In this document: positions 1-64,000 of the stretch, piece after piece | How the letters are laid out: each line of letters starts with the position of its first letter | Numbering within the stretch: position 1 is the stretch's first letter | Origin: Musa acuminata AAA Group | Lineage: Eukaryota > Streptophyta > Magnoliopsida > Zingiberales > Musaceae | Reading direction: 5' to 3' | NCBI RefSeq assembly: GCF_036884655.1 | Contig: NC_088342.1 | Span: 33,354,001-33,418,000 of the forward strand | DNA: 64,000 bases | The notes under the pieces: model-generated | What the model was told of the DNA's origin: nothing | Database searches by the model: none | What the model saw: only the letters and a program-made list of their open reading frames with translations | Made by a program: the position numbers and the translations under genes

Positions 1-625
1 TTGCCGATGATACTGTCGCTTTTGATCTTTGATGAGATTGTTTATTTTCTTGTTGTAGTTGAAAGTGATACATTCTCAGAGCATCGTCCGTGGAAATCTC
101 TTGAACGGGCTTGTAAAGACTTTGAAACGTGCATCTGTCTTCAAGCTTCTTAACTAACTTTTCTTTGAATTGATCTGGGAGGTTTACAAATGCACTACGA
201 AATAATGTAGGAAAAATAAGATACCAAAATTCTTCTGCAGAAAGAGATCAGTAAATACTATCACTTTTCACCTTGTGATGCCTCTAACAATTCCCCATTT
301 GTAACCACTGCTTGCAGATTGCTTAAACCCAATGTTGAAGCCCTCTTGGGCAGAAGCTTCCTTTCCTGCAGATATACCATCTCGATAACCCATATAAACT
401 TTTGTCAAGGGTTCCATATGATACATCCTCAAGTTTAAAGCCCTAAAAGTTTTACTATGAAGAGTTTTGGACAAAGGATATGCATATCATTTATAGATTG
501 CAAGGATACTGTATAAAATTGATCATAACGCCTCTTCTGTTCTCTGTTTAAGTCAGCATCTGAGATTTCATTCAGAAGCCCATCATCACACCAAGAATCA
601 TCAGAAGCATGCTCTGGAACTAAAA
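1..625 (-). CDS. YAE1/LTO1-like protein, 3' end outside window
   Basis: Probable exons are 510-625, 272-398 and 1-194 on the minus strand; the last runs off the window start. Exon 2 encodes the deca-GX3 motif typical of the YAE1/LTO1 family, with G or S every fourth residue (GYRDGISAGKEASAQEG then NIGFKQS..GYKWGIVRG). Intron 2 (195-271) has GT-AG ends and joins in frame. See the complete copy at 12522-13265. Confidence 0.55.
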
Positions 626-2384
626 CTAACTCATTAGCATATTAAACTTTGTATTTGGTCAAAACAACCATGGCAGTATATCATACAACTTCCACAAAAG
701 GCATCATGTAAATGCTACATAAACACCAAAGAGACCAAAATGTCATCTAATATATCCATAATATAGTCACTAATTTGAGGAAGAATGAAATTAAAATTTT
801 AGTTTTGATGAAACTATACTCTGCACATGAATTGCTATGCATGCATCTAGGCCAATCAAATTCAATCGTCTCTGACTTTAAAGGAACAATTCATTCGATT
901 CCAAAATCTCCACATGTGCATGCTCGCTCAATAGCAGAAATGAAAAAGAAACAGTAAAACAATATGATGCATGAGCAATTAAATTAATTTATTAATAAAA
1001 TAAATTTAATTTGTTTAGAGATATTTTACATATGTAATAACATGAAAATATCTACTCAACGAGGAGAAAAAGAAAGAAAAAATACAACAAAAAAGAAATC
1101 ATATTATTGAAAATTACAAATCTTGATTGAATATCTTAAAGATTCATCTCTATAAAGATGAAAGATTATCAATCAAAAATATCATGAAGAGAGGAAGACT
1201 ATTTCTCAAATCAAATCAGAAACGAAGAACAAGATATCATATATTTGATTTGATGCGATTGTAATTTTTTAAATTTCTGTAATTTTCTTTTTATTCTTAT
1301 ACTTGAGCATATAAAAATGGGCTATAACATTGTAATGTATGAATAAAAAAAGGATCCATGAATCAAGTTTTTTTCCTTTCCCACCTTGTGAGGTATGCGG
1401 AGGTGCAAGACTTCTATCCTAGGAGTGTTATCTTTGAGCCAATTGGATAGTTATACATTTGCTTATTATTTTTAGTTATTATCTTTCACTTTTCTCTTTC
1501 TATTCCTCCACTATGAAAGTAATTTGTTGTTGCTCGTCCTACATGCCAACCAATATTGAACACTTCAAAATTAAATATACCATCACATAAGTCTCAGAGA
1601 TATAACCGCAGTGCCTCACCACAATGCTAAAAACTTTGCAAATATCTAGTATTGGTAACAAACCTCATAGCAAACTTTTTACCTTCATCCTCTTGTGATG
1701 ATCTAAGCATGTCCTACAAATAAATCAATTTGTTCCAAAGAGAAACAGAAGAATAGAAATAGCAGGTGCCACCAATTCCACCAAGTAAACCTTTTTCATA
1801 TAAAAATATGACCAAAAGTATCAAATTTATGAGGAAAAAAAAAGCTCACTGAGGGAAAGAACAAGGGTGATCTAGAAGTTGTCCGCTTGCGGAGGGAGGG
1901 CAGCCATCAGAGTTAGAGCTTATCGGGAGAATCACATCAATCGGATCGATAAGCAGCAAAAACACATAGTCCTAGATTAATCATGAGGACCAGATTGATG
2001 GCGGAAAAGAATCTTGCACTGCATCTTCTTTAGGGTTTTCGAACTAGAAAAGTGCGAGAAGGGAATTGAGGGCTAACCGTGAAGTTCTGAACAAGATATG
2101 GTCGATTGTAATGCATTAAATAAATTTGTGAGAGAGTAGGGAACTCTCTTCTTTCCTTAGAGAGAGAAGCTCTGGGTTTCTAAGGCGATAAGGACAACCC
2201 CATTGCCTTCTCCCTCCTTAATTCCACCTTTGATGCGACCCAACCACACCCTTCCCCACCCCCCCCCGCCCCCAACTACTGGCTTCACATCCCCTACTTG
2301 GCTCTCTCCTTGCATCCATTGTTGTTCCCCTCCCTAGGGTGTCATCATCTTCTTCTGTGGTGTCGATCCCTTCAGTTAGGGTTC
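626..2384. other. Upstream region of YAE1-like gene; LTR-like AT-rich segment
   Basis: No convincing coding region. A minus-strand 31-base segment at 1683-1713 is flanked by AG and GT and could be a small upstream exon. The stretch about 1040-1440 resembles the promoter-to-polyadenylation part of a Ty1/copia LTR (TATA-like tataaaaatgggc, then a T-rich end and gaataaaaaaaggatcc), but no TG...CA ends or target duplication were located. A purine/pyrimidine-rich leader-like stretch with an aaaccctaa-type box (minus strand) lies near 2025-2045. Confidence 0.35.
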
Positions 2385-3420
2385 CTGGAGTGATGCCAAG
2401 CCAGACCCCTAAGGTTTTCTCCTTTGGCAAGTACCAAGAAAAATGGGCCACTCCATCGGGATCCTTCCAATGCCCCTCCGCCTTCCAAGAAGAGCCAATT
2501 GGATGGCCCTTTCACTGGAAAGAGCATCTCTTAGGCATTGATGTTAATTGGTCCTTCATATGGGCCAGATGCAAGTTCACTACTATCTTCTTCTTTGTTT
2601 AACCGGATCTATGATGCTTCTAAGGATTTCATCGAATTTGACGAAAAAACTCCTCATGAATGGCAAAAACCTTGAATATCTAGTTTGATCAATCATTTCC
2701 TCCGACTTCGACTTTGGATTTCCTGAAATATGTGGTTTCTCACTAATGGAAATGTTCTTTGGTGTCCCAAGTGATCAATTTGGCTTAAGGTTTTTATTTG
2801 CTTTCAATTTTTTTCTAAAGCGGAGGTTGTTCGCATCCTCACCGAGGGACCATGGACCATTCGAGGGGAGGTTTTGTATCTGATGCCCAAGAAAGCTAAT
2901 TTCCAGCCTCTCACAGAGAGGATCTCATCTGTCCCTATCTAGGTGTAGTTCGTCAATCTTCCTTTGGAGTACTGGAACAGAATGTGTTATTAATCTTGGT
3001 TCTCTCCTAGGTCGTCCCCTAAAGAATGATGAATGTTCTTTCTCGTTTGAAAGGGGTCGATATGTAAGGTTAGTATAGAAATCGATCTTTCAAAACCCCA
3101 TAAGCAGTATGACTGGGTCACCTAAAGAAAGGAATTTTCCAAACTGTTTCATATGAGAATTTACCTTTGGTGTGTTTCAAGTATAGTTGTGTGGGTCATA
3201 AAGTGGATTTGCCCTCTAGTTTCGATGACTTCTTTGACTTCCTCCCTTGTTTTTCTGGACTCTTCTCACAAGGCCGACCCCCAAAAGGGTGTGGAGCAAC
3301 CCCCTTCCGATTTAGATGGCTCTATTACCCTAAGGGAGGTTGGGTCTTCTCACTTAGAGCTGGACCTCTTTGGTCCATGGATTAAAGTTGAGAAGCGTTG
3401 CCCGATTGGTCGTCGGCACA
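2385..3420 (+). pseudogene. Broken LINE (L1-type) ORF1, DUF4283-like
   Basis: Plant L1 ORF1 proteins carry a DUF4283 domain followed by a CCHC zinc knuckle and bind element RNA. Across frames one reads RILTEGPWTIRGEVLYLMP, then FVNLPLEYWNRMC, then NLPLVCFKYSCVGHKVD (knuckle region with one cysteine replaced), then LFGPWIKVEKR, in the order expected for this family. Several stop codons and frame changes separate the blocks. No endonuclease or reverse transcriptase of a LINE is present, so this is a 3'-truncated remnant or a captured ORF1 fragment. Confidence 0.7.
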
Positions 3421-3551
3421 GCCAAGCCAACGCTGATCGAAATCGATCGGAATAGGGGGGTGGGGTGGTGCCATGTCGAGGAAGCGATCGAGGCCATTGG
3501 TTTCCTCTGCTCCTTGAGATATTGGCACACATACAGGTCACATGCCCCCTA

Positions 3552-3960
3552 CACTATAAGAAAAATAGTTATTAACCATGAACAAAAGTTGTCACTAAAA
3601 GAATTAGTGCAAAATGAGCCATCACTAGCTTCCGTCAGCATAGATCTCGTGGCTAAAAGTTTTAGTAACAAAAAAAGACACATATGTCATTAAATTATAG
3701 TTTTTAGTGATAGTTTATATTTGTAGCTAAAACATTAAATTCTATCGCTAAAAATAAATAAATTGATAAATTAATATTTCTGTGACAACAATTGGTTATG
3801 AACACTTCTGTCACTAAAAGAATTGACTAACAATTTTAGTGACAATATAATTAACTCTTACTGATTAAATGGAAAAGATAATAATAATTTAGTGATGGCT
3901 TGACCTGTCACTAAAATATAAAAAAAATTAGTAATGGATTATTTGAGTGTCACTATACTG
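3552..3960 (+). mobile_element. CACTA-like transposon end with subterminal repeats
   Basis: Starts with cactataagaaaaatag, close to plant CACTA (EnSpm) terminal inverted repeats. It is followed by about ten short motifs of the type gtcactaaaa or ttttagtgac in both orientations, as expected for subterminal transposase-binding sites. No matching opposite terminus or transposase was found, so it is a truncated or decayed non-autonomous copy. Confidence 0.5.
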
Positions 3961-4648
3961 TCAATAATAATTTTATTAATTACCTATCAATTTTTAATAA
4001 TTTCAAAATCATACCAAAACTTTTTCATAAATTCAAGATAAAATTATTGATATTTGAAACTTCACATTACAATCTTTATTTTATCCAAAAATCAATATCA
4101 AAGTGAGACAATTATAAATTCCACATCATCTCGAAAAAAAATACATCAAGATATCTTTATATCTTCATTCTTGAACTCTCCTGTGTCATCTTGTGCATCT
4201 TGCGTGAAGTCACAATTGCACAATATATACAGACAAGTCACAATTGTTAGAGTTGCATAGTAGAGTTGAATAGTCCATCACTATTATCCCATGTTTGCAA
4301 ATGCAAATGGTTAAGAAGGTGAGGAAACTGAAACCCTATTCTTCACACATTATTTCTTGCTATTATACTATGGAGGTATATGCAAGTTTTCCTTTATGTC
4401 AACCTACTGCTGACATTACATACTTTTTATTTTCAGAGTTAAGAACTGTTGTATATGAAAATAAAAGCAATTTTATGGTTGATTTCATTGATAAAACATA
4501 AACATGTCAAGATTGTTAGCAGTCCATAACAAGTTTCTAGTGTACTGCAGCCTAAAATTGGAATCCAAAATCAGATTAAAGCTTTCTAAAAGATATACCT
4601 CTTAAGTGAAGTAAAGCAGCATGCAAGCTTAGATATATCAGTGTTGCC
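3961..4648. other. AT-rich unassigned stretch (same at 16601-17288, 38572-39259, 51212-51899)
   Basis: Two open frames of 68 codons lie here but show no recognisable domain and no sign of coding composition. It may hold an interior of the CACTA-like element or intron DNA. I see no defined feature. Confidence 0.4.
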
Positions 4649-5901
4649 AAGCATTGAAATAAAGTGATATAGAAACAGAAAATATCGAAGTCAAGTTCAT
4701 CTTCCTAAGCGAGGGGAGGCCCGAAGCGCGTCGCTTGGGCGCTCGCCCGAGCCCAGGCGTCGGGCGAGCACCCGGGTTAAACCCAGCGACCGAACCAGCG
4801 TTTTAGGTCTGGTTCAATCTCCGGTGCTTTAGTTGGTCCAATCGAACCAACTAAAGCACCGATATCAGCCTTCTTCTCACGACTTCCCCAACTCTAACCC
4901 CGCTCGCCACTTCCACTCCCACTGCCGCTGCCACTGCTACCGCTATCGCTGCCACTATCGTCGCTCGTCGCTCTTGCTCTCGCTGCCGCTGCCACTGTCG
5001 TCGCTCGCCGCTCCTGCTCTCGCTCCCCCCTGCTCGCTGCTACCGCTGCCACTATCGCCGCTCCCGCTGCCACTACTCGCTGTTACTGCTGTCGCTGCCA
5101 CTATCGTCGCTCGCCACTCCTGCTCCCGTTGACACTGTTGCCGCTCCCGCTGCCTCTGCTCGCTACTACTGCTGCTGCTGCCACTATCGCCGCTCGCCGC
5201 TCCTACTCCCGCTACTCGTTACTACCACTGTCGTTGCCACTGTCGCCGCTCCCGTTGCCATCGCTCGCCGCTACCGCTGCCGCTGCCACTATCGCTTCTC
5301 GTTGCTACCGCTGCCGCTGCTCTCAGTCAGTAGCCTCAGTCTTCCTCTTACTCACACTCTTCTTACTTCAATAGTATACTGTTATCAATATATTAACAAT
5401 ATGCTACTAACCAAGGTTCGTCGTACCGTACCGTACAGGCGTTTCGACCCGAGCTCGGTACGGTACGGTACGGTACCGGTGTACCGGGCGGTACATCAGG
5501 GCGTACCGAACAATTTTATACTTTTTTCATACTGTAGCACTGTAGCGGTATCGGGCGATCCGCATACCGGTAACCTATCGGATCGGTACGTACCGCCGGG
5601 TACGGATGGTACGCTTCGGTATGATAGACCTTGCTACTAACTATATACTAGTAATAGTATTTTTATTTATTAGATTAATAATATATTATTTTGATTTTAA
5701 TACTATTAATTTTTATTTATTTAAAATTATTATTAGGTTTCAGAATAAATGATATATTTTTATTTAAATAAATATATTTATTAATTATATTATATATTTT
5801 TATATTTTAGCGTCTCGCTTCACTCAGACGAACGCCTAGCACCTCGGACGTTTTTGGACCTGAGCACCTTTTGGCACCTAGCGCCTTTTCAATCAATGCT
5901 T
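4649..5901. mobile_element. Probable non-autonomous DNA transposon with GCT/GCC minisatellite
   Basis: Bounded by the short inverted pair aagcattga (4649-4657) and tcaatgctt (5893-5901). GC-rich ends (cgcgtcgcttgggcgctcgc on the left, gcctagcacctcgg and cacctagcgcc on the right) surround AT-rich DNA. Inside: a 16-bp stem hairpin (4822-4837 with 4846-4861, 8-base loop), a degenerate GCT/GCC-rich minisatellite at about 4905-5335 and a nested MITE at 5412-5632. The family is unclear; hAT-like is a guess and no 8-bp duplication was found. Confidence 0.35.
5412..5632. mobile_element. 221-bp Mutator-type MITE with 9-bp target duplication
   Basis: Flanked by the direct repeat gctactaac at 5403-5411 and 5633-5641; 9 bp is the Mutator-superfamily length. 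Ends are caagg and cctt with imperfect inverted termini. The interior is rich in ggtacggtacggtacc-type self-complementary blocks. It encodes nothing and would depend on a transposase elsewhere. Confidence 0.65.
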
Positions 5902-6010
5902 GTAACAAAATTGCAAACTCTCTTTAATGCATCTCAACTCCCAAAGCTTTGACAACAAGTTGAGAACAACTTATAGCTAAACAATGAAAAACAAGACCAA
6001 GTTTATATAC

Positions 6011-6595
6011 CATTTATGCCCTCCATTCCAGCTCTGACAATAGGCCGAGCACTTGAGTAGCTGCGGAAGGACCAAAAACTCTTATCTACAAAACATAAAT
6101 AAATGTTACACAATGGCACTTCCCGTGATTCACCATCCAAATTCGAGCAATCAACAATCCAAATAACATAATTAATCAAATTAAAGCCCCACGCCCCCAC
6201 AATCCAAACCCTAATTGAGATTTCCCAAGAGGATCCGCCACGATGAACCTCACGAGAAACATAGAAGAAAAGGCGTAATCCAAATAGAACCGAGAATCCA
6301 CGCAGAACAAATACAACCCTGAGCAATTAAACGGAAATCGAGACGAGCTCCATAGCAAAAGAAACAAGAGCATATCAATGCGTCGCAATAGGAACGGGGT
6401 AGGAGAAAGGAGTGGAGGCAAACCTGGGGGCAGGGCCCGACGACGGGATCGATCGCCTGAGGAGCAAAGGTAGGGGTTTTCGACGAGCGGGACAACTGGG
6501 TGGGACGAGTGAAGCTCCGTCTCTCGATCTCGTCTTCCTCGCCCGCTCCTATTTCGCTGTTGGTGGCGACGCACGGACGTGAGGGGATCATTAAA
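6011..6595 (-). pseudogene. Leader and second exon of an unidentified gene
   Basis: On the minus strand a GC-rich leader-like exon ends at 6424 (CCCCCAG before GT). An intron of about 340 bp runs to TTTTGTAG, and a 75-bp exon (6011-6085) follows, ending before GTATAT. That exon reads SFWSFRSYSSARPIVRAG then MEGIN, possibly a targeting-type N terminus. No later exon was recognised toward 4000, where transposon DNA follows, so it looks like a 5' gene fragment. Product not identified. Confidence 0.4.
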
Positions 6596-7000
6596 TCGCA
6601 ACTACAGAGAGAAGCAGTGTAGAACGAGGAGGTCGAGGAGCAGTGACGGCCAGGACCGAAGAGCCAAGTAAGAATCCGCCATTTCCACCGTCTCTCTCTC
6701 TCACTCTCCCTGCCTCCGGGGGTGATATGGCGAGGGCGTCTCATGCTTAGTGACGCGATTGATATCGGATTCGGGGAGTGGCCTCCGGAGCCGTCGGATC
6801 CGGGTGGGGTTGCAGCCGCCGCCGTTCTCCCTGTAGTTGCGATTTAATGATCCCCTCACGTCCGTGCGTTTTAATGATCCCCTCACGTTCCTCGCCCGCT
6901 CCTATTTCGCTGTTGGTGGCGACGCACGGACGTGCGTTTTAATGATCCCCTCACGTCCGTGCGTTTTAATGATCCCCTCACGTCCGTGCGTTCTCCGCTC

Positions 7001-7679
7001 AAAATGGCGACGCACGGACGTGAGGGGATCATTAAAACGCACGGACGGACGTGAGGGGATCATTAAATCGCACGGACGTGAGGGGATCATTAAAACGCAC
7101 GGACGTGAGGGGATCATTAAAACGCACGTCCGTGCGTCGCCACCAACAGCGAAATAGGAGCGGGCGAGGAACGTGAGGGGATCATTAAAACGCACGGACG
7201 TGAGGGGATCATTAAATCGCAACTACAGGGAGAACGGCGGTGGCTGCAACCCCACCCGGATCCGACGGCTCCGTAGGCCACTCCCCGAATCCGATATCAA
7301 CCGCGTCACTAAGCATGAGACGCCCTCGCCATATCACCCCCGGAGGCAGGGAGAGTGAGAGAGAGAGACGGTGGAAATGGCGGATTCTTACTTGGCTCTT
7401 CGGTCCTGGCCGTCACTGCTCCTCGACCTCCTCGTTCTACACTGCTTCTCTCTGTAGTTGCGATTTAATGATCCCCTCACGTCCGTGCGTTTTAATGATC
7501 CCCTCACGTTCCTCGCCCGCTCCTATTTCGCTGTTGGTGGCGACGCACGGACGTGCGTTTTAATGATCCCCTCACGTCCGTGCGTTTTAATGATCCCCTC
7601 ACGTCCGTGCGATTTAATGATCCCCTCACGTCCGTCCGTGCGTTTTAATGATCCCCTCACGTCCGTGCGTCGCCATTTT
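7001..7679. repeat. 679-bp near-perfect palindrome (foldback)
   Basis: Outer arms 7001-7216 and 7464-7679 are each 216 bp and read as exact reverse complements by eye. Together with the 18-bp inverted ends of the core (7217-7463) the arms reach about 234 bp around a loop of about 211 bp. Counterparts are at 19641-20319, 41612-42290 and 54252-54930. Confidence 0.85.
7377..7457 (+). pseudogene. 26-codon open frame in foldback core, possible captured 5' gene end
   Basis: An ATG after a GA-rich leader-like stretch opens a frame beginning MADSYLALRSW, hydrophobic afterwards, that stops inside the core's terminal repeat. The leader-plus-start layout resembles the 5' end of a host gene captured by a transposon. 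The other core carries it on minus near 6602-6682. Parent gene not recognised. Confidence 0.3.
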
Positions 7680-7712
7680 TCTTGGTACTTGCCAAAGGAG
7701 AAAACCTTAGGG
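7673..7712 (-). repeat. 40-bp inverted copy of LINE-remnant DNA
   Basis: These 40 bases are the exact reverse complement of 2407-2446, about 5.2 kb away in the same unit. The copy overlaps the palindrome end by 7 bases. Confidence 0.85.
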
Positions 7713-7816
7713 TCAAATACTCATCTTGTAAATGAGCTTACAACAACATAATCAAATTAATATTTTATTTATAAAAAATTAATTTATTTTAAGCTTTCGA
7801 TTTTTGGTAAGTTAGT

Positions 7817-8160
7817 CTACGTCGGTTTTGACACGAATTGAAATGTTTGTCGGCGCTCTCTCTCTGTCTTATAACTATTTTCTTGGCAACGAGAATATGA
7901 AAACAAAAATGAACAAACCCTCATCACTCGATAACAGAACAATACCATGAAGAGCAAACCAAAATAACAACAATCCATATCACTTGAATCGAACCAGAAC
8001 CTTTCATCAACGAGATTAATGTCGAGGAGGTCTCGAGGAAGCAATTTCTTAAAAGCATAAACTCGTCCTCCTCCTTCATCGGCACCTCCTCACCAACTTT
8101 GAAACCCGCCGTCTTCAATCAAGTCATTGGGAATAAGGGGTTGGCTGCGCGGGAGAGGGA
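7817..8160 (-). pseudogene. Unidentified minus-strand 5' gene fragment
   Basis: Between about 7980 and 8090 the minus strand carries a charged stretch encoding EGGGRVYAFKKLLPRDLLD then NLVDERFWFDSSD, followed by GA-rich upstream DNA at 8150-8215 typical of a plant leader or promoter. No downstream exon was found. Product not recognised; 5' fragment or pseudogene. Confidence 0.3.
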
Positions 8161-8512
8161 GGAGTGAAGTATTTAGGATGGTGGAGAGAGAGGGAGGAGA
8201 GGAGAGGAGAGCGTGGGCCGTGATTCCTGATCTCGTTTGCGGAGCTGGAGATTGGTATTTCCACTAGGGTTCGCCTACAATCGTGCACCACCAAGAAGGC
8301 CGTGACACGTTATTTCTTTTTCAAAACATTTATATCCCAACTTGCTTAAGTTGAATCGACCGACTCTAAGTCAACTCGTAACTCCATTCTAGTCAAGCTT
8401 TGTATCCGATTCAAACGTCAGGTCCAGCTCCAAATCTCAATCTGGGCCGTAGGATCACATGATCCTACGATCTTGATCACAAATTTGATGACCGCATCTA
8501 ATTCAACAGTGA
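8161..8512. other. Purine-rich leader/promoter-like stretch (same at 20801-21152, 42772-43123, 55412-55763)
   Basis: A GGAGA-type microsatellite lies at about 8180-8215, followed by unique sequence. A short inverted repeat around 8450-8472 (cgtaggatcacatgatcctacg) forms a local palindrome. No coding region seen. Confidence 0.4.
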
Positions 8513-8525
8513 ATATATATATATA
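8513..8525. repeat. AT dinucleotide microsatellite
   Basis: 13 bases of alternating AT, immediately left of the point where copia integrase homology begins. Also 13 bases at 21153-21165 and 43124-43136. Confidence 0.9.
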
Positions 8526-8526
8526 A

Positions 8527-11500
8527 AGCATTAGATCTAACCGTGGAGGGGAATATTACAACAGAAATGACGGCTCAAGTGAATAACGTCGAGGACCATT
8601 TGCTCTATGCTTAGAGGAGTGTGGAATTATCCCTCTGTATAAAATGCCAAGGTCACCTAACATGAATGGTGTAGTTGAAAGACGAAACTGCATACTTAAA
8701 GACATAGTAAGAAATATGATTTTTTAATCTACTTTGCCAGAGTCACCCTGAAGAGAAGCAATAAAAACTATAGCTTACATTCTTATAGAGTACCAATTAA
8801 AGCAACTACAAAAACACCTTATGAGCTTTGGACCGGAAGAAAGCCTAGTCTAAGACACTTTCATAGGTTGTCTATCTAAGACAAGGCTTTACAGGCCTAA
8901 CGAAAAGAAATTGGAACCCCAAACAATAAGCAATTATTTTATTGGTTATTCTGAACGATCTAAGGGGTACAAATTTTATAATCCCAAATCAATAAATATT
9001 TTTGAGACGAGTATTGCTACAAGGATATTGAGTTTGGGGGGAGAAATAAGGTTAAAGACTTTACGTTTGAGGAAGAATTGGTTCAATTTAATCCAATTTA
9101 TATAGTTGCCACTGATGTGGTAAATTCAATACCTCAAAAGGATATAGTTATTTCAACTCTCATATAGTATAAGAAAATTATTCATGAGGATCAAACTCAA
9201 CATCCATAAGAACATATGCCACAAGAGCTAGCACCTTTGTGATGATCCATTAGGGTAAGGAGGAGTGTCATTTCATATGATTATATGGTATTTCTCTGGG
9301 AACATGAAAAAAGTAGTGATATGATGGAAGATGATCCAATCAACTTCTGTCAAGCCATAGAGGATTCCAATTCTGATAAGTGGATTAAAGCAATGAATCA
9401 AGAGTATAAGTCCATACAAGACAATAAAGTTTGAGAACTTGTCCCATTACTAGAAGGAGTGAAACCTATTGGTTGTAAATGAATTTTTAAAACCAAAGGG
9501 GATTCTAATGGTAATGTGGAGAGATATAATGCACGTCTTGTGGCAAAGGGCTATACTCAAAAAGAAGGGATTGACTTTAAATAAACCTCTCCGGTTTTAA
9601 CGAATGACTCTTTTAGAATAATTATGGCTTTAGCCACACATTTTGATTTGGAGCTCTTTTAGATGGATGTCAAAATAACAATTCTCAATGGAAATATTGA
9701 TGAAATAATTTATATGGTACAACCAGAATACTTTGTATCAAAAGAACCTAAAGAAAATAATATGTAAATTGATAAAATCTATCTATGAGATAAAACATAT
9801 TGAATCTTGGATTTTGACGATGAAATCAATTAATGAGTTTACGATCTAATGTACATTTAAGTGACGTAGGACTATATTCAATCAGGAAAGATAAATTGAT
9901 TAAAGCGGTGGAATCAAAAGTTGGGCTAAAATGGAACATGTCAGAAGATTGGATGTCGGACCGGAGGAATGGTCGACATATCAGCAGAAGGCTTCGTGCC
10001 ATGAGTTCGAGCATCGGGCCAAAAGGATCAGACATTGCACTAAGGAGATCGGGTGTTGCGGATATCAACATGTCGATTGGGCAATACATCATAAGAGAGG
10101 ACGATATGCCGAAGGTTCGGGTGAAGCATCGGATGAACCAATGACATGTTGGATAACTTAGAATTCTTACTTATAATAATTTGTCTAGATCGAAGTAGTT
10201 TTAGTTCTAATTGGATTGTTTAGAATGTAATTAGACCAACTCAATTAAGGGTTAACTCGGCCTGAATTGAGGTTATTTTGGGCCAAGTGGAAGGCCCAAT
10301 TAGTGACCCATAGTTGGCCCAAGCTGTGACACTGCCAGTTTAGGTGATAATATTGCTCAGATACAATCTCCCAGACTGTGTTAGGCGATGGTACCACCTA
10401 GTCTCAAACTAGCAGGCGGTGGTATTGCTAGTACCCCGAAAACCCAAGATGAGATCATTTGGTCCCTAAATTTGAATTCATTTGGGGCCTAAAAAAGCCC
10501 TACTCATCCTTACTCAGTAAACACATCAATTGTGAGTTAAAGAAAAGAAAAATGCTATAGTAATATTATAAAAACTCGTCTCAAGCTCTCAGTATTATAT
10601 ATGAAGTTTAAGAGAGAGGTGAGGTTGTAAAGGTTATCTCCTAAACCGGTGAAAAGGAGAAAATGGGTGTAAAAGGATAGTTGATCTTCCTCCGTTGAAA
10701 GAAGATCGATAGTGAAAGCCGATGGCCTTGAGTGAAGAGGAATCAGGAGTGGATGCAGGTCACGATGATCGAACCACTATAAAACTTAGTTTGTATTTAT
10801 ATTTTGTTTTTTACCTTTATTGCAAACTGCTTTACTTGCTCATTACATTTTTATGAACGTTTTCGAGTTAAACATATTTCCAATATGATTTTATCGAACG
10901 AAATTTTCGAATCGATGTAATTTTTATCGTAAGCACTAATTCACACTCCCCCCCTCTTAGTGCCGATTTCGATCCTAACAAAACAAACATCCTTTTAGTA
11001 GTATCACAAATTTCATCAAGTAATTATCTCATTTGGTTTTAAGATGAATGTTGTTGATGATTGCATGTATCATAAATTCAGTGGGAGCAAATTTATTTTA
11101 CTAATATTTTATATGGATGACATTCTGCTTGCCACTAATGATATAGACATATTGCACGAAACCAAGAGATTTTTATCTAGAAATTTTGAGATGAAAGATC
11201 TTGGTGATGCCCCTTTTGTATTAGGAATCCAGATACACCGAGATAGATCGCGAGGTATTCTAGGATTATTACAAAGGAACTATATCGATAAAGTACTCAA
11301 AAGGTTTAGCATATAGGATTGTAAACCAGGAGACACCCCTATCACAAAGGGAGACAAGTTCAGTCTCAATTAGTGCCTTAAAAAAAATCTGGAAACTTAA
11401 GAAATGCAGAAGATTTCCTATGCATTAGCTTTAGGGAGTCTAATGTATGCACAGGTTTGTACGCGTCAAGATATAATGTACATTGTTGGAATGTTAGATA

Positions 11501-11645
11501 GATACTTAAGCAATCATGGAATGAATCATTGGAATGTAGCTAAAAGAGTCATGAGATATTTAAAGAGAACAAAAGATCATATGGGAGATCAGACCATTTG
11601 AAGATCATTGGATATTCTGACTCCGATTTTACTAGATGCTAAGAC
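8527..11645 (+). pseudogene. Decayed Ty1/copia pol, truncated at both ends and split by solo LTR
   Basis: Homology starts inside integrase (SIRSNRGGEYYNRNDGSSE, MNGVVERRN), continues through YFIGYSERSKGYKFY and the start of reverse transcriptase (GNVERYNARLVAKGYTQKEG). After the solo LTR it resumes with NVVDDCMYHKFSG, the catalytic FYMDDILLA block, QDIMYIVG and the start of RNase H (IIGYSDSDF). Many stops and frameshifts interrupt it. No gag, protease, own LTRs or RNase H end are present. It is clearly different from the young element in copy 3. Confidence 0.85.
9798..10980 (+). mobile_element. 1183-bp solo LTR, SIRE-like copia family
   Basis: Flanked by the direct repeat aaaca (9793-9797 and 10981-10985). 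The left end (tattgaatcttggattttga) matches the start of the young element's LTR read on its coding strand. The right end (agcactaattcac, a C run, cctcttagtgccg, gatcctaaca) matches its finish. The first base pair has decayed from TG to TA and the middle is much diverged. It sits in the reverse transcriptase part of the older pol; with one duplication removed the flanking homology is continuous. Arises by LTR-LTR recombination. Confidence 0.85.
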
Positions 11646-28798: not shown

Positions 28799-28800
28799 AT

Positions 28801-35696: not shown

Positions 35697-35698
35697 CT

Positions 35699-53152: not shown

Positions 53153-53261
53153 GTAACAAAATTGCAAACTCTCTTTAATGCATCTCAACTCCCAAAGCTT
53201 TGACAACAAGTTGAGAACAACTTATAGCTAAACAATGAAAAACAAGACCAAGTTTATATAC

Positions 53262-53846
53262 CATTTATGCCCTCCATTCCAGCTCTGACAATAGGCCGAG
53301 CACTTGAGTAGCTGCGGAAGGACCAAAAACTCTTATCTACAAAACATAAATAAATGTTACACAATGGCACTTCCCGTGATTCACCATCCAAATTCGAGCA
53401 ATCAACAATCCAAATAACATAATTAATCAAATTAAAGCCCCACGCCCCCACAATCCAAACCCTAATTGAGATTTCCCAAGAGGATCCGCCACGATGAACC
53501 TCACGAGAAACATAGAAGAAAAGGCGTAATCCAAATAGAACCGAGAATCCACGCAGAACAAATACAACCCTGAGCAATTAAACGGAAATCGAGACGAGCT
53601 CCATAGCAAAAGAAACAAGAGCATATCAATGCGTCGCAATAGGAACGGGGTAGGAGAAAGGAGTGGAGGCAAACCTGGGGGCAGGGCCCGACGACGGGAT
53701 CGATCGCCTGAGGAGCAAAGGTAGGGGTTTTCGACGAGCGGGACAACTGGGTGGGACGAGTGAAGCTCCGTCTCTCGATCTCGTCTTCCTCGCCCGCTCC
53801 TATTTCGCTGTTGGTGGCGACGCACGGACGTGAGGGGATCATTAAA
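53262..53846 (-). pseudogene. Unidentified leader/second exon, copy 4
   Basis: Exon 2 at 53262-53336 and leader donor after 53675; same as copy 1. Confidence 0.4.
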
Positions 53847-54930
53847 TCGCAACTACAGAGAGAAGCAGTGTAGAACGAGGAGGTCGAGGAGCAGTGACGG
53901 CCAGGACCGAAGAGCCAAGTAAGAATCCGCCATTTCCACCGTCTCTCTCTCTCACTCTCCCTGCCTCCGGGGGTGATATGGCGAGGGCGTCTCATGCTTA
54001 GTGACGCGGTTGATATCGGATTCGGGGAGTGGCCTCCGGAGCCGTCGGATCCGGGTGGGGTTGCAGCCGCCGCCGTTCTCCCTGTAGTTGCGATTTAATG
54101 ATCCCCTCACGTCCGTGCGTTTTAATGATCCCCTCACGTTCCTCGCCCGCTCCTATTTCGCTGTTGGTGGCGACGCACGGACGTGCGTTTTAATGATCCC
54201 CTCACGTCCGTGCGTTTTAATGATCCCCTCACGTCCGTGCGTTCTCCGCTCAAAATGGTGACGCACGGACGTGAGGGGATCATTAAAACGCACGGACGGA
54301 CGTGAGGGGATCATTAAATCGCACGGACGTGAGGGGATCATTAAAACGCACGGACGTGAGGGGATCATTAAAACGCACGTCCGTGCGTCGCCACTAACAG
54401 CGAAATAGGAGCGGGCGAGGAACGTGAGGGGATCATTAAAACGCACGGACGTGAGGGGATCATTAAATCGCAACTACAGGGAGAACGGCGGCGGCTGCAA
54501 CCCCACCAGGATCCGACGGCTCCGGAGGCCACTCCCCGAATCCGATATCAACCGCGTCACTAAGCATGAGACGCCCTCGCCATATCACCCCCGGAGGCAG
54601 GGAGAGTGAGAGAGAGAGACGGTGGAAATGGCGGATTCTTACTTGGCTCTTCGGTCCTGGCCGTCACTGCTCCTCGACCTCCTCGTTCTACACTGCTTCT
54701 CTCTGTAGTTGCGATTTAATGATCCCCTCACGTCCGTGCGTTTTAATGATCCCCTCACGTTCCTCGCCCGCTCCTATTTCGCTGTTGGTGGCGACGCACG
54801 GACGTGCGTTTTAATGATCCCCTCACGTCCGTGCGTTTTAATGATCCCCTCACGTCCGTGCGATTTAATGATCCCCTCACGTCCGTCCGTGCGTTTTAAT
54901 GATCCCCTCACGTCCGTGCGTCGCCATTTT
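53786..54930. repeat. Foldback cluster, copy 4
   Basis: Cores at 53847-54093 and 54468-54714. Private changes at 54009, 54259, 54395 and 54508 slightly lower arm identity. Confidence 0.75.
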
Positions 54931-54963
54931 TCTTGGTACTTGCCAAAGGAGAAAACCTTAGGG
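54924..54963 (-). repeat. 40-bp inverted copy, copy 4
   Basis: Reverse complement of 49658-49697. Confidence 0.85.
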
Positions 54964-55067
54964 TCAAATACTCATCTTGTAAATGAGCTTACAACAACAT
55001 AATCAAATTAATATTTTATTTATAAAAAATTAATTTATTTTAAGCTTTCGATTTTTGGTAAGTTAGT

Positions 55068-55411
55068 CTACGTCGGTTTTGACACGAATTGAAATGTTTG
55101 TCGGCGCTCTCTCTCTGTCTTAGAACTATTTTCTTGGCAACGAGGATATGAAAACAAAAATGAACAAACCCTCATCACTCGATAACAGAACAATACCATG
55201 AAGAGCAAACCAAAATAACAACAATCCATATCACTTCAATCGAACCAGAACCTTTCATCAACGAGATTAATGTCGAGGAGGTCTCGAGGAAGCAATTTCT
55301 TAAAAGCATAAACTCGTCCTCCTCCTTCATCGGCACCTCCTCACCAACTTTGAAACCCGCCGTCTTCAATCAAGTCATTGGGAATAAGGGGTTGGCTGCG
55401 CGGGAGAGGGA
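55068..55411 (-). pseudogene. Unidentified 5' gene fragment, copy 4
   Basis: Carries three private substitutions within about 120 bp (55123, 55145, 55237), which would fit loss of constraint. Confidence 0.3.
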
Positions 55412-55763
55412 GGAGTGAAGTATTTAGGATGGTGGAGAGAGAGGGAGGAGAGGAGAGGAGAGCGTGGGCCGTGATTCCTGATCTCGTTTGCGGAGCTGGA
55501 GATTGGTATTTCCACTAGGGTTCGCCTACAATCGCGCACCACCAAGAAGGCCGTGACACGTTATTTCTTTTTCAAAACATTTATATCCCAACTTGCTTAA
55601 GTTGAATCGACCGACTCTAAGTCAACTCGTAACTCCATTCTAGTCAAGCTTTGTATCCGATTCAAACGTCAGGTCCAGCTCCAAATCTCAATCTGGGCCG
55701 TAGGATCACATGATCCTACGATCTTGATCACAAATTTGATGACCGCATCTAATTCAACAGTGA

Positions 55764-55784
55764 ATATATATATATATATATATA
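55764..55784. repeat. Expanded AT microsatellite in copy 4
   Basis: 21 bases against 13 in copies 1-3; this alone makes copy 4 8 bp longer. Confidence 0.95.
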
Positions 55785-55785
55785 A

Positions 55786-58700
55786 AGCATTAGATCTAAC
55801 CGTGGAGGGGAATATTACAACAGAAATGACGGCTCAAGTGAATAACGTCGAGGACCATTTGCTCTATGCTTAGAGGAGTGTGGAATTATCCCTCTGTATA
55901 AAATGCCAAGGTCACCTAACATGAATGGTGTAGTTGAAAGACGAAACTGCATACTTAAAGACATAGTAAGAAATATGATTTTTTAATCTACTTTGCCAGA
56001 GTCACCCTGAAGAGAAGCAATAAAAACTATAGCTTACATTCTTATAGAGTACCAATTAAAGCAACTACAAAAACACCTTATGAGCTTTGGACCGGAAGAA
56101 AGCCTAGTCTAAGACACTTTCATAGGTTGTCTATCTAAGACAAGGCTTTACAGGCCTAACGAAAAGAAATTGGAACCCCAAACAATAAGCAATTATTTTA
56201 TTGGTTATTCTGAACGATCTAAGGGGTACAAATTTTATAATCCCAAATCAATAAATATTTTTGAGACGAGTATTGCTACAAGGATATTGAGTTTGGGGGG
56301 AGAAATAAGGTTAAAGACTTTACGTTTGAGGAAGAATTGGTTCAATTTAATCCAATTTATATAGTTGCCACTGATGTGGTAAATTCAATACCTCAAAAGG
56401 ATATAGTTATTTCAACTCTCATATAGTATAAGAAAATTATTCATGAGGATCAAACTCAACATCCATAAGAACATATGCCACAAGAGCTAGCACCTTTGTG
56501 ATGATCCATTAGGGTAAGGAGGAGTGTCATTTCATATGATTATATGGTATTTCTCTGGGAACATGAAAAAAGTAGTGATATGATGGAAGATGATCCAATC
56601 AACTTCTGTCAAGCCATAGAGGATTCCAATTCTGATAAGTGGATTAAAGCAATGAATCAAGAGTATAAGTCCATACAAGACAATAAAGTTTGAGAACTTG
56701 TCCCATTACTAGAAGGAGTGAAACCTATTGGTTGTAAATGAATTTTTAAAACCAAAGGGGATTTTAATGGTAATGTGGAGAGATATAATGCACGTCTTGT
56801 GGCAAAGGGCTATACTCAAAAAGAAGGGATTGACTTTAAATAAACCTCTCCGGTTTTAACGAATGACTCTTTTAGAATAATTATGGCTTTAGCCACACAT
56901 TTTGATTTGGAGCTCTTTTAGATGGATGTCAAAATAACAATTCTCAATGGAAATATTGATGAAATAATTTATATGGTACAACCAGAATACTTTGTATCAA
57001 AAGAACCTAAAGAAAATAATATGTAAATTGATAAAATCTATCTATGAGATAAAACATATTGAATCTTGGATTTTGACGATGAAATCAATTAATGAGTTTA
57101 CGATCTAATGTACATTTAAGTGACGTAGGACTATATTCAATCAGGAAAGATAAATTGATTAAAGCGGTGGAATCAAAAGTTGGGCTAAAATGGAACATGT
57201 CAGAAGATTGGATGTCGGACCGGAGGAATGGTCGACATATCAGCAGAAGGCTTCGTGCCATGAGTTCGAGCATCGGGCCAAAAGGATCAGACATTGCACT
57301 AAGGAGATCGGGTGTTGCGGATATCAACATGTCGATTGGGCAATACATCATAAGAGAGGACGATATGCCGAAGGTTCGGGTGAAGCATCGGATGAACCAA
57401 TGACATGTTGGATAACTTAGAATTCTTACTTATAATAATTTGTCTAGATCGAAGTAGTTTTAGTTCTAATTGGATTGTTTAGAATGTAATTAGACCAACT
57501 CAATTATGGGTTAACTCGGCCTGAATTGGGGTTATTTTGGGCCAAGTGGAAGGCCCAATTAGTGACCCATAGTTGGCCCAAGCTGTGACACTGCCAGTTT
57601 AGGTGATAATATTGCTCAGATACAATCTCCCAGATTGTGTTAGGCGATGGTACCACCTAGTCTCAAACTAGCAGGCGGTGGTATTGCTAGTACCCCGAAA
57701 ACCCAAGATGAGATCATTTGGTCCCTAAATTTGAATTCATTTGGGGCCTAAAAAAGCCCTACTCATCCTTACTCAGTAAACACATCAATTGTGAGTTAAA
57801 GAAAAGAAAAATGCTATAGTAATATTATAAAAACTCGTCTCAAGCTCTCAGTATTATATATGAAGTTTAAGAGAGAGGTGAGGTTGTAAAGGTTATCTCC
57901 TAAACCGGTGAAAAGGAGAAAATGGGTGTAAAAGGATAGTTGATCTTCCTCCGTTGAAAGAAGATCGATAGTGAAAGCCGATGGCCTTGAGTGAAGAGGA
58001 ATCAGGAGTGGATGCAGGTCACGATGATCGAACCACTATAAAACTTAGTTTGTATTTATATTTTGTTTTTTACCTTTATTGCAAACTGCTTTACTTGCTC
58101 ATTACATTTTTATGAACGTTTTCGAGTTAAACATATTTCCAATATGATTTTATCGAACGAAATTTTCGAATCGATGTAATTTTTATCGTAAGCACTAATT
58201 CACACTCCCCCCCTCTTAGTGCCGATTTCGATCCTAACAAAACAAACATCCTTTTAGTAGTATCACAAATTTCATCAAGTAATTATCTCATTTGGTTTTA
58301 AGATGAATGTTGTTGATGATTGCATGTATCATAAATTCAGTGGGAGCAAATTTATTTTACTAATATTTTATATGGATGACATTCTGCTTGCCACTAATGA
58401 TATAGACATATTGCACGAAACCAAGAGATTTTTATCTAGAAATTTTGAGATGAAAGATCTTGGTGATGCCCCTTTTGTATTAGGAATCCAGATACACCGA
58501 GATAGATCGCGAGGTATTCTAGGATTATTACAAAGGAACTATATCGATAAAGTACTCAAAAGGTTTAGCATATAGGATTGTAAACCAGGAGACACCCCTA
58601 TCACAAAGGGAGACAAGTTCAGTCTCAATTAGTGCCTTAAAAAAAATCTGGAAACTTAAGAAATGCAGAAGATTTCCTATGCATTAGCTTTAGGGAGTCT

Positions 58701-58904
58701 AATGTATGCACAGGTTTGTACGCGTCAAGATATAATGTACATTGTTGGAATGTTAGATAGATACTTAAGCAATCATGGAATGAATCATTGGAATGTAGCT
58801 AAAAGAGTCATGAGATATTTAAAGAGAACAAAAGATCATATGGGAGATCAGACCATTTGAAGATCATTGGATATTCTGACTCCGATTTTACTAGATGCTA
58901 AGAC
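55786..58904 (+). pseudogene. Decayed Ty1/copia pol, copy 4
   Basis: Same stops; private T at 56764. Confidence 0.85.
57057..58239 (+). mobile_element. Solo LTR, copy 4
   Basis: Duplications at 57052-57056 and 58240-58244; private T at 57635. Confidence 0.85.
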
Positions 58905-59780
58905 AATATGATTTAATATTCTCCGACACATTCAAAAATAATAATTAATTATAAAAATAATATATAATTAATCTAGAATTATACACATGAATACATTTAA
59001 TGAGACTTATATTTTATAATTTATAATTTATACAAATACTATATTGTGGAGCATGACATAGTTGTAATATGCTTAGACATCTAAGATTACAATTAATTAA
59101 AGGTCAAAGAGAGTTAAGTTGGTAATTGCTGATTTATTTGGCAAATCAAAAATTTATGGCTATTGAATTGACTTGCTAAATACATAAGAAAGATCAGAAA
59201 AACTCAACCATATGACTTTAACTTAGTGTAAAAAAAAATCTAATTAATGAAATACGATGTTAATTTAAAGCTGAAGTAAATGCATTCTGAAAGTAGAAAT
59301 TTATTCAGAAAAAAGGAAAGAAAAAAGTGTAAGAGTTGTTTGTATTAGTTTGAAAATAGTATCTCATTCATTTCAATATAGTGCTACTTGATTAACCTCT
59401 CATCAGATTCTATCGTTATTGTTGGAGAAGCATCTTATGCTTATATTTACAGTGTGCAAAACTAGGAGGAAAAAGAAAGGCCATGCTCAACATCAAACAC
59501 AATGAAAAAGTATTGCATTTCGGAAGGAGATTATTATCAAACCATGAGTGCTTTCAACGTTCCCAAAAATGACGGCACAGTTCCAGTGGAAGAATAGTCA
59601 ATACTCTGAAATTTGGAACCTATTTTTCTGAAGCAAAATCTCAAAATATATTATGCTGCAATGGAGCAATGGTTCAGTTCTTTTCATTGCAATCTGAGGC
59701 CATCAAAAAATTACAATCTGTCCAGAAAATTCAGACGTAAGTGAATTTGAACGATCCCTCCAAGTACTTCAACATCAAGG

Positions 59781-60524
59781 TCATTCTTCTTCCTCTCCTT
59801 TTACAACATCAACACTTGCTTTGATTTCAGAAGACTCACTTACAAGTAACATAAGCTCCTTGAAAAAGAAGTCTAACTTATTGCAGTCAAAATCTTCGAT
59901 TGCCGATGATACTGTCGCTTTTGATCTTTGATGAGATTGTTTATTTTCTTGTTGTAGTTGAAAGTGATACATTCTCAGAGCATCGTCCGTGGAAATCTCT
60001 TGAACGGGCTTGTAAAGACTTTGAAACGTGCATCTGTCTTCAAGCTTCTTAACTAACTTTTCTTTGAATTGATCTGGGAGGTTTACAAATGCACTACGAA
60101 ATAATGTAGGAAAAATAAGATACCAAAATTCTTCTGCAGAAAGAGATCAGTAAATACTATCACTTTTCACCTTGTGATGCCTCTAACAATTCCCCATTTG
60201 TAACCACTGCTTGCAGATTGCTTAAACCCAATGTTGAAGCCCTCTTGGGCAGAAGCTTCCTTTCCTGCAGATATACCATCTCGATAACCCATATAAACTT
60301 TTGTCAAGGGTTCCATATGATACATCCTCAAGTTTAAAGCCCTAAAAGTTTTACTATGAAGAGTTTTGGACAAAGGATATGCATATCATTTATAGATTGC
60401 AAGGATACTGTATAAAATTGATCATAACGCCTCTTCTGTTCTCTGTTTAAGTCAGCATCTGAGATTTCATTCAGAAGCCCATCATCACACCAAGAATCAT
60501 CAGAAGCATGCTCTGGAACTAAAA
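59781..60524 (-). CDS. YAE1/LTO1-like gene, fifth occurrence
   Basis: Exons at 60409-60524, 60171-60297 and 59781-60093. It is intact to the same degree as the other copies. Confidence 0.6.
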
Positions 60525-62283
60525 CTAACTCATTAGCATATTAAACTTTGTATTTGGTCAAAACAACCATGGCAGTATATCATACAACTTCCACAAAAGG
60601 CATCATGTAAATGCTACATAAACACCAAAGAGACCAAAATGTCATCTAATATATCCATAATATAGTCACTAATTTGAGGAAGAATGAAATTAAAATTTTA
60701 GTTTTGATGAAACTATACTCTGCACATGAATTGCTATGCATGCATCTAGGCCAATCAAATTCAATCGTCTCTGACTTTAAAGGAACAATTCATTCGATTC
60801 CAAAATCTCCACATGTGCATGCTCGCTCAATAGCAGAAATGAAAAAGAAACAGTAAAACAATATGATGCATGAGCAATTAAATTAATTTATTAATAAAAT
60901 AAATTTAATTTGTTTAGAGATATTTTACATATGTAATAACATGAAAATATCTACTCAACGAGGAGAAAAAGAAAGAAAAAATACAACAAAAAAGAAATCA
61001 TATTATTGAAAATTACAAATCTTGATTGAATATCTTAAAGATTCATCTCTATAAAGATGAAAGATTATCAATCAAAAATATCATGAAGAGAGGAAGACTA
61101 TTTCTCAAATCAAATCAGAAACGAAGAACAAGATATCATATATTTGATTTGATGCGATTGTAATTTTTTAAATTTCTGTAATTTTCTTTTTATTCTTATA
61201 CTTGAGCATATAAAAATGGGCTATAACATTGTAATGTATGAATAAAAAAAGGATCCATGAATCAAGTTTTTTTCCTTTCCCACCTTGTGAGGCATGCGGA
61301 GGTGCAAGACTTCTATCCTAGGAGTGTTATCTTTGAGCCAATTGGATAGTTATACATTTGCTTATTATTTTTAGTTATTATCTTTCACTTTTCTCTTTCT
61401 ATTCCTCCACTATGAAAGTAATTTGTTGTTGCTCGTCCTACATGCCAACCAATATTGAACACTTCAAAATTAAATATACCATCACATAAGTCTCAGAGAT
61501 ATAACCGCAGTGCCTCACCACAATGCTAAAAACTTTGCAAATATCTAGTATTGGTAACAAACCTCATAGCAAACTTTTTACCTTCATCCTCTTGTGATGA
61601 TCTAAGCATGTCCTACAAATAAATCAATTTGTTCCAAAGAGAAACAGAAGAATAGAAATAGCAGGTGCCACCAATTCCACCAAGTAAACCTTTTTCATAT
61701 AAAAATATGACCAAAAGTATCAAATTTATGAGGAAAAAAAAAGCTCACTGAGGGAAAGAACAAGGGTGATCTAGAAGTTGTCCGCTTGCGGAGGGAGGGC
61801 AGCCATCAGAGTTAGAGCTTATCGGGAGAATCACATCAATCGGATCGATAAGCAGCAAAAACACATAGTCCTAGATTAATCATGAGGACCAGATTGATGG
61901 CGGAAAAGAATCTTGCACTGCATCTTCTTTAGGGTTTTCGAACTAGAAAAGTGCGAGAAGGGAATTGGGGGCTAACCGTGAAGTTCTGAACAAGATATGG
62001 TCGATTGTAATGCATTAAATAAATTTGTGAGAGAGTAGGGAACTCTCTTCTTTCCTTAGAGAGAGAAGCTCTGGGTTTCTAAGGCGATAAGGACAACCCC
62101 ATTGCCTTCTCCCTCCTTAATTCCACCTTTGATGCGACCCAACCACACCCTTCCCCACCCCCCCCCGCCCCCAACTACTGGCTTCACATCCCCTACTTGG
62201 CTCTCTCCTTGCATCCATTGTTGTTCCCCTCCCTAGGGTGTCATCATCTTCTTCTGTGGTGTCGATCCCTTCAGTTAGGGTTC
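60525..62283. other. Upstream region of YAE1-like gene, copy 5
   Basis: Same arrangement as copy 4, with an empty target site. No additional feature seen. Confidence 0.35.
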
Positions 62284-63319
62284 CTGGAGTGATGCCAAGC
62301 CAGACCCCTAAGGTTTTCTCCTTTGGCAAGTACCAAGAAAAATGGGCCACTCCATCGGGATCCTTCCAATGCCCCTCCGCCTTCCAAGAAGAGCCAATTG
62401 GATGGCCCTTTCACTGGAAAGAGCATCTCTTAGGCATTGATGTTAATTGGTCCTTCATATGGGCCAGATGCAAGTTCACTACTATCTTCTTCTTTGTTTA
62501 ACCGGATCTATGATGCTTCTAAGGATTTCATCGAATTTGACGAAAAAACTCCTCATGAATGGCAAAAACCTTGAATATCTAGTTTGATCAATCATTTCCT
62601 CCGACTTCGACTTTGGATTTCCTGAAATATGTGGTTTCTCACTAATGGAAATGTTCTTTGGTGTCCCAAGTGATCAATTTGGCTTAAGGTTTTTTTTTGC
62701 TTTCAATTTTTTTCTAAAGCGGAGGTTGTTCGCATCCTCACCGAGGGACCATGGACCATTCGAGGGGAGGTTTTGTATCTGATGCCCAAGAAAGCTAATT
62801 TCCAGCCTCTCACAGAGAGGATCTCATCTGTCCCTATCTAGGTGTAGTTCGTCAATCTTCCTTTGGAGTACTGGAACAGAATGTGTTATTAATCTTGGTT
62901 CTCTCCTAGGTCGTCCCCTAAAGAATGATGAATGTTCTTTCTCGTTTGAAAGGGGTCGATATGTAAGGTTAGTATAGAAATCGATCTTTCAAAACCCCAT
63001 AAGCAGTATGACTGGGTCACCTAAAGAAAGGAATTTTCCAAACTGTTTCATATGAGAATTTACCTTTGGTGTGTTTCAAGTATAGTTGTGTGGGTCATAA
63101 AGTGGATTTGCCCTCTAGTTTCAATGACTTCTTTGACTTCCTCCCTTGTTTTTCTGGACTCTTCTCACAAGGCCGACCCCCAAAAGGGTGTGGAGCAACC
63201 CCCTTCCGATTTAGATGGCTCTATTACCCTAAGGGAGGTTGGGTCTTCTCACTTAGAGCTGGACCTCTTTGGTCCATGGATTAAAGTTGAGAAGCGTTGC
63301 CCGATTGGTCGTCGACACA
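62284..63319 (+). pseudogene. Broken LINE ORF1, copy 5
   Basis: Same lesions, with private changes near 62694, 63123 and 63315. Resembles copy 1 at 62286. Confidence 0.7.
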
Positions 63320-63450
63320 GCCAAGCCAACGCTGATCGAAATCGATCGGAATAGGGGGGTGGGGTGGTGCCATGTCGAGGAAGCGATCGAGGCCATTGGT
63401 TTCCTCTGCTCCTTGAGATATTGGCACACATACAGGTCACATGCCCCCTA

Positions 63451-63859
63451 CACTATAAGAAAAATAGTTATTAACCATGAACAAAAGTTGTCACTAAAAG
63501 AATTAGTGCAAAATGAGCCATCACTAGCTTCCGTCAGCATAGATCTCGTGGCTAAAAGTTTTAGTAACAAAAAAAGACACATATGTCATTAAATTATAGT
63601 TTTTAGTGATAGTTTATATTTGTAGCTAAAACATTAAATTCTATCGCTAAAAATAAATAAATTGATAAATTAATATTTCTGTGACAACAATTGGTTATGA
63701 ACACTTCTGTCACTAAAAGAATTGACTAACAATTTTAGTGACAATATAATTAACTCTTACTGATTAAATGGAAAAGATAATAATAATTTAGTGATGGCTT
63801 GACCTGTCACTAAAATATAAAAAAAATTAGTAATGGATTATTTGAGTGTCACTATACTG
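63451..63859 (+). mobile_element. CACTA-like end, copy 5
   Basis: Terminus at 63451-63467. The window ends 141 bp beyond the last subterminal motif, in AT-rich DNA. Confidence 0.5.
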
Positions 63860-64000
63860 TCAATAATAATTTTATTAATTACCTATCAATTTTTAATAAT
63901 TTCAAAATCATACCAAAACTTTTTCATAAATTCAAGATAAAATTATTGATATTTGAAACTTCACATTACAATCTTTATTTTATCCAAAAATCAATATCAA

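Follow-up and report, generated by a model that had tools for sequence, protein, structure and literature searches.

The window analysed here is a 64,000-bp stretch of banana DNA (C16:33354001-33418000, from an assembly of 1.53 Gb in 1060 contigs), and it lies within a tandem array whose repeating unit carries a YAE1 gene. Self-comparison of the window gave offsets of 12640, 21971, 34611 and so on, and this head-to-tail repetition is far above chance expectation. The window holds four complete units plus 4,101 bp of a fifth, all on the plus strand. With the frame set by window base 1 and the offset-12640 alignment, unit 1 occupies 1..12640 (12,640 bp), unit 2 occupies 12641..25280 (12,640 bp; the reference unit U for unit coordinates), unit 3 occupies 25281..47251 (21,971 bp, or 12,640 + 9,331), unit 4 occupies 47252..59899 (12,648 bp, with 8 bp of additional TA), and unit 5 occupies 59900..64000, where the window edge cuts it off. 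The initial annotation, which described at least 4.3 units of 12,640 bp, was thus right about the head-to-tail arrangement but not about a uniform length, and its handful to about 20 differences per pair comes near the 5-23 substitutions (0.04-0.18%) measured between unit pairs in a five-way alignment that omits a retrotransposon insertion. Across the five units, 34 substitution sites (24 of them transitions) and one 8-bp TA indel were found. A 1.18-kb palindrome contains ten of the 34 sites (binomial p 0.0008). The 634 exon bases contain none, where 1.7 would be expected and zero arises with a chance of 0.17. Arrays of 45S or 5S rDNA were ruled out, since an Rfam scan of the window returned no rRNA gene match at the gathering threshold, and a tRNA array was ruled out by the finding of zero tRNA matches.

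The YAE1 gene of unit 2 lies at 12525..19241 on the minus strand, as located by tblastn with the predicted proteins P0121 and P0123. Its exons are 1a (about 19065-19241), 1b (18652-18726, ending in MEGIN), 2 (about 13150-13260), 3 (about 12914-13033) and 4 (12525-12836), all on the minus strand. All five are open in unit 2 under these protein-derived models; exon 1 was checked in unit 2 and in the single copies found elsewhere in the assembly. The Yae1_N domain (PF09811) is recognised in P0121 and P0123 at 44.4 and 44.0 bits, against a curated cut-off of 27.5, and the joined exons have 110 homologues, including proteins of Musa acuminata AAA Group, further Musa proteins and those of Ensete (89%), which mark the DNA as banana. 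Across exons 2-4, cut out as 566 bp, no difference separates the 13 distinct array copies extracted, 11 from C16 and 2 from the unplaced contigs C989 and C995. The copies on C1 and C27 are identical to these, one of two copies on C20 differs at 1 site, and the copy on C31 differs at 9. Describing the locus as YAE1-like was correct but undersold it, given the full exon set, the Yae1_N domain and the uniform exons 2-4. YAE1 works with LTO1 in the iron-sulfur loading of ABCE1.

One feature speaks against calling the gene plainly intact, namely an apparently unusual splice site. The predicted intron between exons 2 and 3 (window 13030-13150, minus strand) starts with GTATCCTT, which we take to be a U12-type donor, but it has no AG before predicted exon 3 in 53 of the 64 units counted in the whole array; a one-base variant supplies the AG in the other 11. 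Single-copy YAE1 loci likewise have no AG at this intron end, so its absence is not damage specific to the array. At the 5' end of the gene lies a complex palindrome of 27-bp repeats (19175..20352), with arms at 19209-19630 and 19709-20130 (422 bp) that are 99% complementary. The palindrome overlaps the predicted first exon, and as a 922-nt RNA it folds at -961 kcal/mol (z of -86 against 20 shuffles).

Two generations of transposon are present. A degraded Ty1/copia fossil with pieces of the SH3_retrovirus and RVT_2 domains occupies 21240..24290 on the plus strand (from Pfam matches on the unit 1 equivalents, with limits set by eye), and inside it a nested degraded long terminal repeat (LTR) lies at about 22420-23620, identified by a 48-bp LTR-end match in the unit 1 equivalents. 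The initial annotation's account of a unit made of old transposons holds for this fossil but overlooked a fresh LTR retrotransposon of 9,326 bp in unit 3 (27586..36911, minus strand). The LTRs (27586-28798 and 35699-36911) are 1,213 bp each, identical and bounded by TG...CA ends, and a 5-bp duplication, GCTCT, flanks the element (27581-27585 and 36912-36916). The insertion site, within the first intron of the YAE1 copy that unit 3 carries, is empty in the other four window units, and the insertion accounts for the 21,971-bp length of unit 3. Pfam matches on the minus strand show a gag open reading frame (ORF; 34081..35658), one in-frame stop, a pol ORF with integrase and RVT_2 (31042..34080), and a third ORF matching PF20167 Transposase_32 (29442..30539). 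The order is thus gag, integrase, reverse transcriptase and third ORF, and a TGGTATCAGAGC primer site and a G-rich tract were found. We take the TGGTATCAGAGC site (iMet-type) and the G-rich tract to be marks of Sirevirus (SIRE/Maximus), and on its sequence features the element fits a Ty1/copia element of the Sirevirus type. Its LTR family is abundant, and among 40 scored of 3,672 candidates, many near-identical pairs about 8 kb apart were seen, so the family looks recently active. LINE and CACTA remnants suggested by reading the sequence by eye were not confirmed: two frames, 2234-2599 and 3113-3382, matched no Pfam family.

The point at which one unit passes into the next could be fixed to the base. 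At 8509..8535 on the plus strand (and again at 21149, 43120 and 55760), ...GTGAA(TA)n is joined to AAGCATTAGA. The sequence to the left of the amplified segment reads ...GGATAAAAAGCATTAGATC, that to the right reads ...CAACAGTGAA(TA)nTCATTATAG, and that between units reads ...CAACAGTGAA(TA)nAAGCATTAGATC. Taken together, the flank and junction sequences indicate that a (TA)n microsatellite is joined to a point inside the copia fossil. The exact junction pattern occurs at 64 places (59 on C16, 3 on C989 and 2 on C995) and nowhere else; it was not found on C27. Of 63 junctions on C16, 59 carry the exact pattern and the other 4 were placed through exon spacing.

The whole array was rebuilt from this pattern together with exact matches to a 39-base exon-3 pattern searched genome-wide, with a third marker pattern (88 places) as a check. 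Sequence was read for about 12 of the units, mostly in part, and the others are known by marker positions. The edges, size and junction, which had been left undefined in the initial annotation, were thereby located: the array runs from C16:32953723 to C16:33847931, spans 894 kb and comprises 64 units. The exon-3 pattern matches exactly at 64 genomic places, 53 of them on C16, and with up to 3 mismatches at 80 places, 64 of them on C16; the 11 units without an exact match are the same 11 that have a one-mismatch match. The remaining places at up to 3 mismatches are on C1 (1), C9 (2), C20 (2), C27 (1), C31 (1), C989 (3), C995 (2), and C1025, C1030, C15 and C26 (1 each). On C16 all exon and junction matches are on the plus strand, and the last unit contains an inverted piece. 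To the left of the array, a 709-bp unit fragment was noticed at C16:32914292-32915000, in a locus (C16:32910001-32920000) that holds 5,000 N.

Unit lengths fall mainly into two forms, 44 of about 12.6 kb and 15 of about 16.7 kb; the others measure 17,289, 21,971 (the unit in the window), 19,944 and 12,076 bp, and 15,079 bp for the final unit. Judged by length, one of the 64 units has the retrotransposon. Unit 35 (C16:33422440-33442384) is 7.3 kb above the standard unit length. A doubled marker, with its two occurrences 4,058-4,132 bp apart, is found in 16 of the 64 units. The end of long unit 5, the single long unit read, contains a 1,881-bp direct repeat (99.9% identity, spacing 4,126 bp) that encloses right-flank and loop DNA, and recombination between the two repeats would yield a short unit. 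The single base change just before exon 3 is common to 11 units scattered from unit 12 to unit 51, a distribution that fits exchange between units; the clustering of the long units and of these 11 variants along the array was judged by eye. Among the unplaced contigs, C989 and C995 carry 3 and 2 further junctions, and the C989 spacings nearly equal those of units 38-39. A 1,000-N gap lies close to where C989 (241001-247000) passes into the array.

What lies at the same place on the other homologues? Contig matches step by 11 (C6/C17/C28, C10/C21/C32, C11/C22/C33), which fits three haplotypes of 11 chromosomes each, and the plant is likely a triploid Cavendish. The contig numbering suggests that C5/C16/C27 represent chromosome 5 and that C9/C20/C31 represent chromosome 9. 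Copies outside the array were read on C1, C27, C20 and C31. C27 has one copy (29956482-29973925) between flanks that match those of the array, at 99.6% on the left and 99.3% on the right between C16 and C27; in this copy a loop of about 1.7 kb separates the 4.2-kb arms of a palindrome. At full length, the outer left flank recurs only on C27 (among 40 scored of 10,503 candidates), and the right flank is found at full length only on C27 and C5 (98% on C5; all 17 candidates scored). C5 follows the right flank to within about 100 bp of the array end and has no match to the exon-3 pattern at up to 3 mismatches. About 1.6-3.4 kb beyond the end of this right-flank match, parts of C5 resemble the copia fossil and the left flank at 83-87%; they may represent an older relative or repeats of a dispersed kind.

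Among 40 scored of 132 candidates, C9, C1, C31, C20, C1025 and C1030 likewise contain a 2-kb piece of the inner left flank, and since the inner left flank is common to these contigs and the outer flanks are not, the YAE1 segment appears to have been copied between chromosomes. On C20 (12427001-12447000), two YAE1 copies stand head to head in a palindrome whose arms measure at least 7.8 kb, and across 6.6 kb each copy is 99.2% like the unit; C31 is the most diverged copy among those read (90-98% in its main pieces). The C1 copy (C1:38424209-38432187) is truncated and partly inverted. A grouping of C1, C16 and C27 as the three homologues was rejected, because the right flank groups C5, C16 and C27 and leaves C1 as a separate partial copy. 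The predicted proteins P0121 and P0139 (calmodulin-like) join a calmodulin first exon on C1 to YAE1 exons.

The suggestion of recent amplification in the initial annotation is borne out by these comparisons. Over about 3.6 kb, the array copies compared are 0-7 bases apart and 10-16 bases from the allelic copy on C27. In addition, the array copies in this comparison (nine from C16 and one from each of C989 and C995) all carry a derived T at -1199 and a derived C at +1302, where C1, C27, C20 and C31 have C and T; judging from these shared bases, the array fits descent from one founder. Homogenisation among the units is likely, and the same data fit recent amplification. With substitution rates of 4.5e-9 to 1.3e-8 per site per year, the unit divergence of about 0.12% corresponds to roughly 0.05-0.13 million years (My), a lower bound on age if exchange is ongoing, and the C16-C27 flank divergence of about 0.45% corresponds to roughly 0.17-0.5 My. 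The absence of any difference between its LTRs places the retrotransposon insertion at under about 0.1-0.27 My. The expansion thus probably took place in one haplotype within about 0.5 My.

The reading that we favour, and hold to be fairly probable, is a haplotype-specific expansion in place of a gene-bearing segment, through one tandem duplication and then unequal exchange. The YAE1 segment and its surroundings would have been copied from the C9/C20/C31 locus to the C16/C27 chromosome, if the presumed direction is correct. On the C16 lineage, one tandem duplication would then have joined the right-end (TA)n to the copia fossil at the left end. This founding join shows at most a few bases of homology; the type of repair behind it is a matter of inference. 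Near-identical units may then have exchanged unequally, through crossing over or an equivalent process based on replication, until 64 were present. Long units would become short ones by recombination within the 1.88-kb direct repeat, assuming that the change runs in that direction, and the Sirevirus-type element would have inserted later into one unit. No selected function would be required for the expansion.

Alternatively, the unit may have been circularised outside the chromosome at the (TA)n/copia junction, copied by rolling circle and recombined back as a concatemer into its own locus. One exact junction type at 59 of the 63 C16 junctions and the fit to one founder would be expected of such a circle, and the long palindromes and AT-rich DNA of the unit are prone to breakage. 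However, the flanks of the array are its native ones and no further junction was seen, and later exchange is needed anyway to account for the mixing of long with short units and for the scatter of variants, so that we regard this route as unlikely. Inflation or construction of the array by the assembler from fewer real units is improbable. C989 and C995 do repeat pieces of the array, with a 1,000-N gap beside the C989 part, and the accessible portion of Martin et al. (2025) describes chimerism in published assemblies of Cavendish. Against this stand a retrotransposon with its target duplication in one unit, a unit longer by 7.3 kb, 16 long units, small length differences, the one-base variant in 11 of 64 units and the resolution of both edges. 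Such unit-specific features would not come from pure duplication of one contig, and the remark in the initial annotation that copy-specific bases make an assembly duplication less likely is upheld by this copy-specific structure.

Several points nonetheless weigh against in-place expansion as we describe it. The 64 copies are counted in assembly sequence alone, with sequence seen for about 12 units and marker positions for the others, and the extra junctions on C989 and C995 mean that the copy number may err in either direction. Martin et al. (2025), in its accessible portion, warns of haplotype chimerism in published Cavendish assemblies. Flanks and a junction of just this kind would also result if a circle were cut out of the locus and later reintegrated there by recombination, and the shared derived bases could also stem from conversion. 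Finally, the fossil-like stretches on C5 leave it unproven as an empty site.

Two further proposals concern what the array does. Retention of the array by selection for more YAE1 product is very unlikely: the unit has the full exon set, with exons 2-4 unchanged in 13 distinct array copies, but zero variable sites in 634 exon bases arises 17% of the time by chance, the predicted intron between exons 2 and 3 has no AG end in 53 of 64 units, and the array is on one of three homologues. A tentative possibility, compatible with the other readings, is that read-through of the palindrome would produce a hairpin RNA, leading to methylation of the array and perhaps to repression of other YAE1 copies. 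The unit has a near-perfect hairpin, which overlaps with predicted exon 1, and tandem repeats of maize P1-wr are described as hypermethylated in the available text of PMC2788268; however, the predicted YAE1 transcript appears to start inside one arm, so that it need not cross the hairpin.

The closest known systems are the tandem gene-segment amplifications of maize P1-wr and kochia EPSPS, with which the banana array shares near-identical head-to-tail gene units and a single-copy allele at the same place (C27). P1-wr has 6 near-identical tandem copies in W23 and 11 in B73, the P1-rr allele is single-copy, and a 12.6-kb EcoRV band marks adjacent P1-wr copies (PMC2788268, available text). As in P1-wr, so far as that account extends, one banana allele is multicopy in tandem and another single-copy; P1-wr, however, comprises 6-11 copies of a pigment regulator with a known phenotype, whereas the banana array comprises 64 YAE1 units over 894 kb in long and short forms. 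In kochia, EPSPS is typically present in 3-8 copies with a mobile element between repeats and is herbicide-selected, as the accessible part of PMC6808082 describes. By comparison with that partial description, the banana array has no element at its junction and no known selection. Human D4Z4 and DXZ4 macrosatellites, from the excerpts at hand, are likewise tandem arrays of long units with variable copy number. Their units are a few kb long, whereas those in banana are 12.6-17 kb, derive from a gene locus and are on one of three homologues.

In the same genus, the DH-Pahang V4 assembly retains gaps attributed to "other tandem and inverted repeats" on chromosomes 1 and 5, and the largest cluster of tandem genes in it, on chromosome 7, comprises 38 genes (PMC8423783, in the portion available). 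These gaps may be on the same chromosome as the array, but that portion names no unit or gene; the array is a candidate for the gap repeats. No YAE1 array in banana was found in open-access titles and abstract openings, in a search where few queries named YAE1, and the available portions of PMC10493638 and PMC10505225 make no mention of one.

Overall, the array appears to be a real, recent and haplotype-limited tandem amplification of a gene segment. A bolder view, which is unlikely, is that it represents the birth of a macrosatellite from an ordinary gene locus on one of three homologues and that the array, owing to the long hairpin at the 5' end of the gene, would serve as a source of small RNAs tuning or silencing YAE1. 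The beginnings of arrays are usually lost, and only the final homogenised array remains. Here one genome contains the likely source locus, the single-copy allele, the junction fixed to the base, both forms of the unit and 64 units, making initiation and expansion directly testable, and comparison is possible across banana clones and wild relatives. The array is also a candidate for filling one banana assembly gap, and it offers a natural case in which one haplotype has gained a gene segment about 64-fold.

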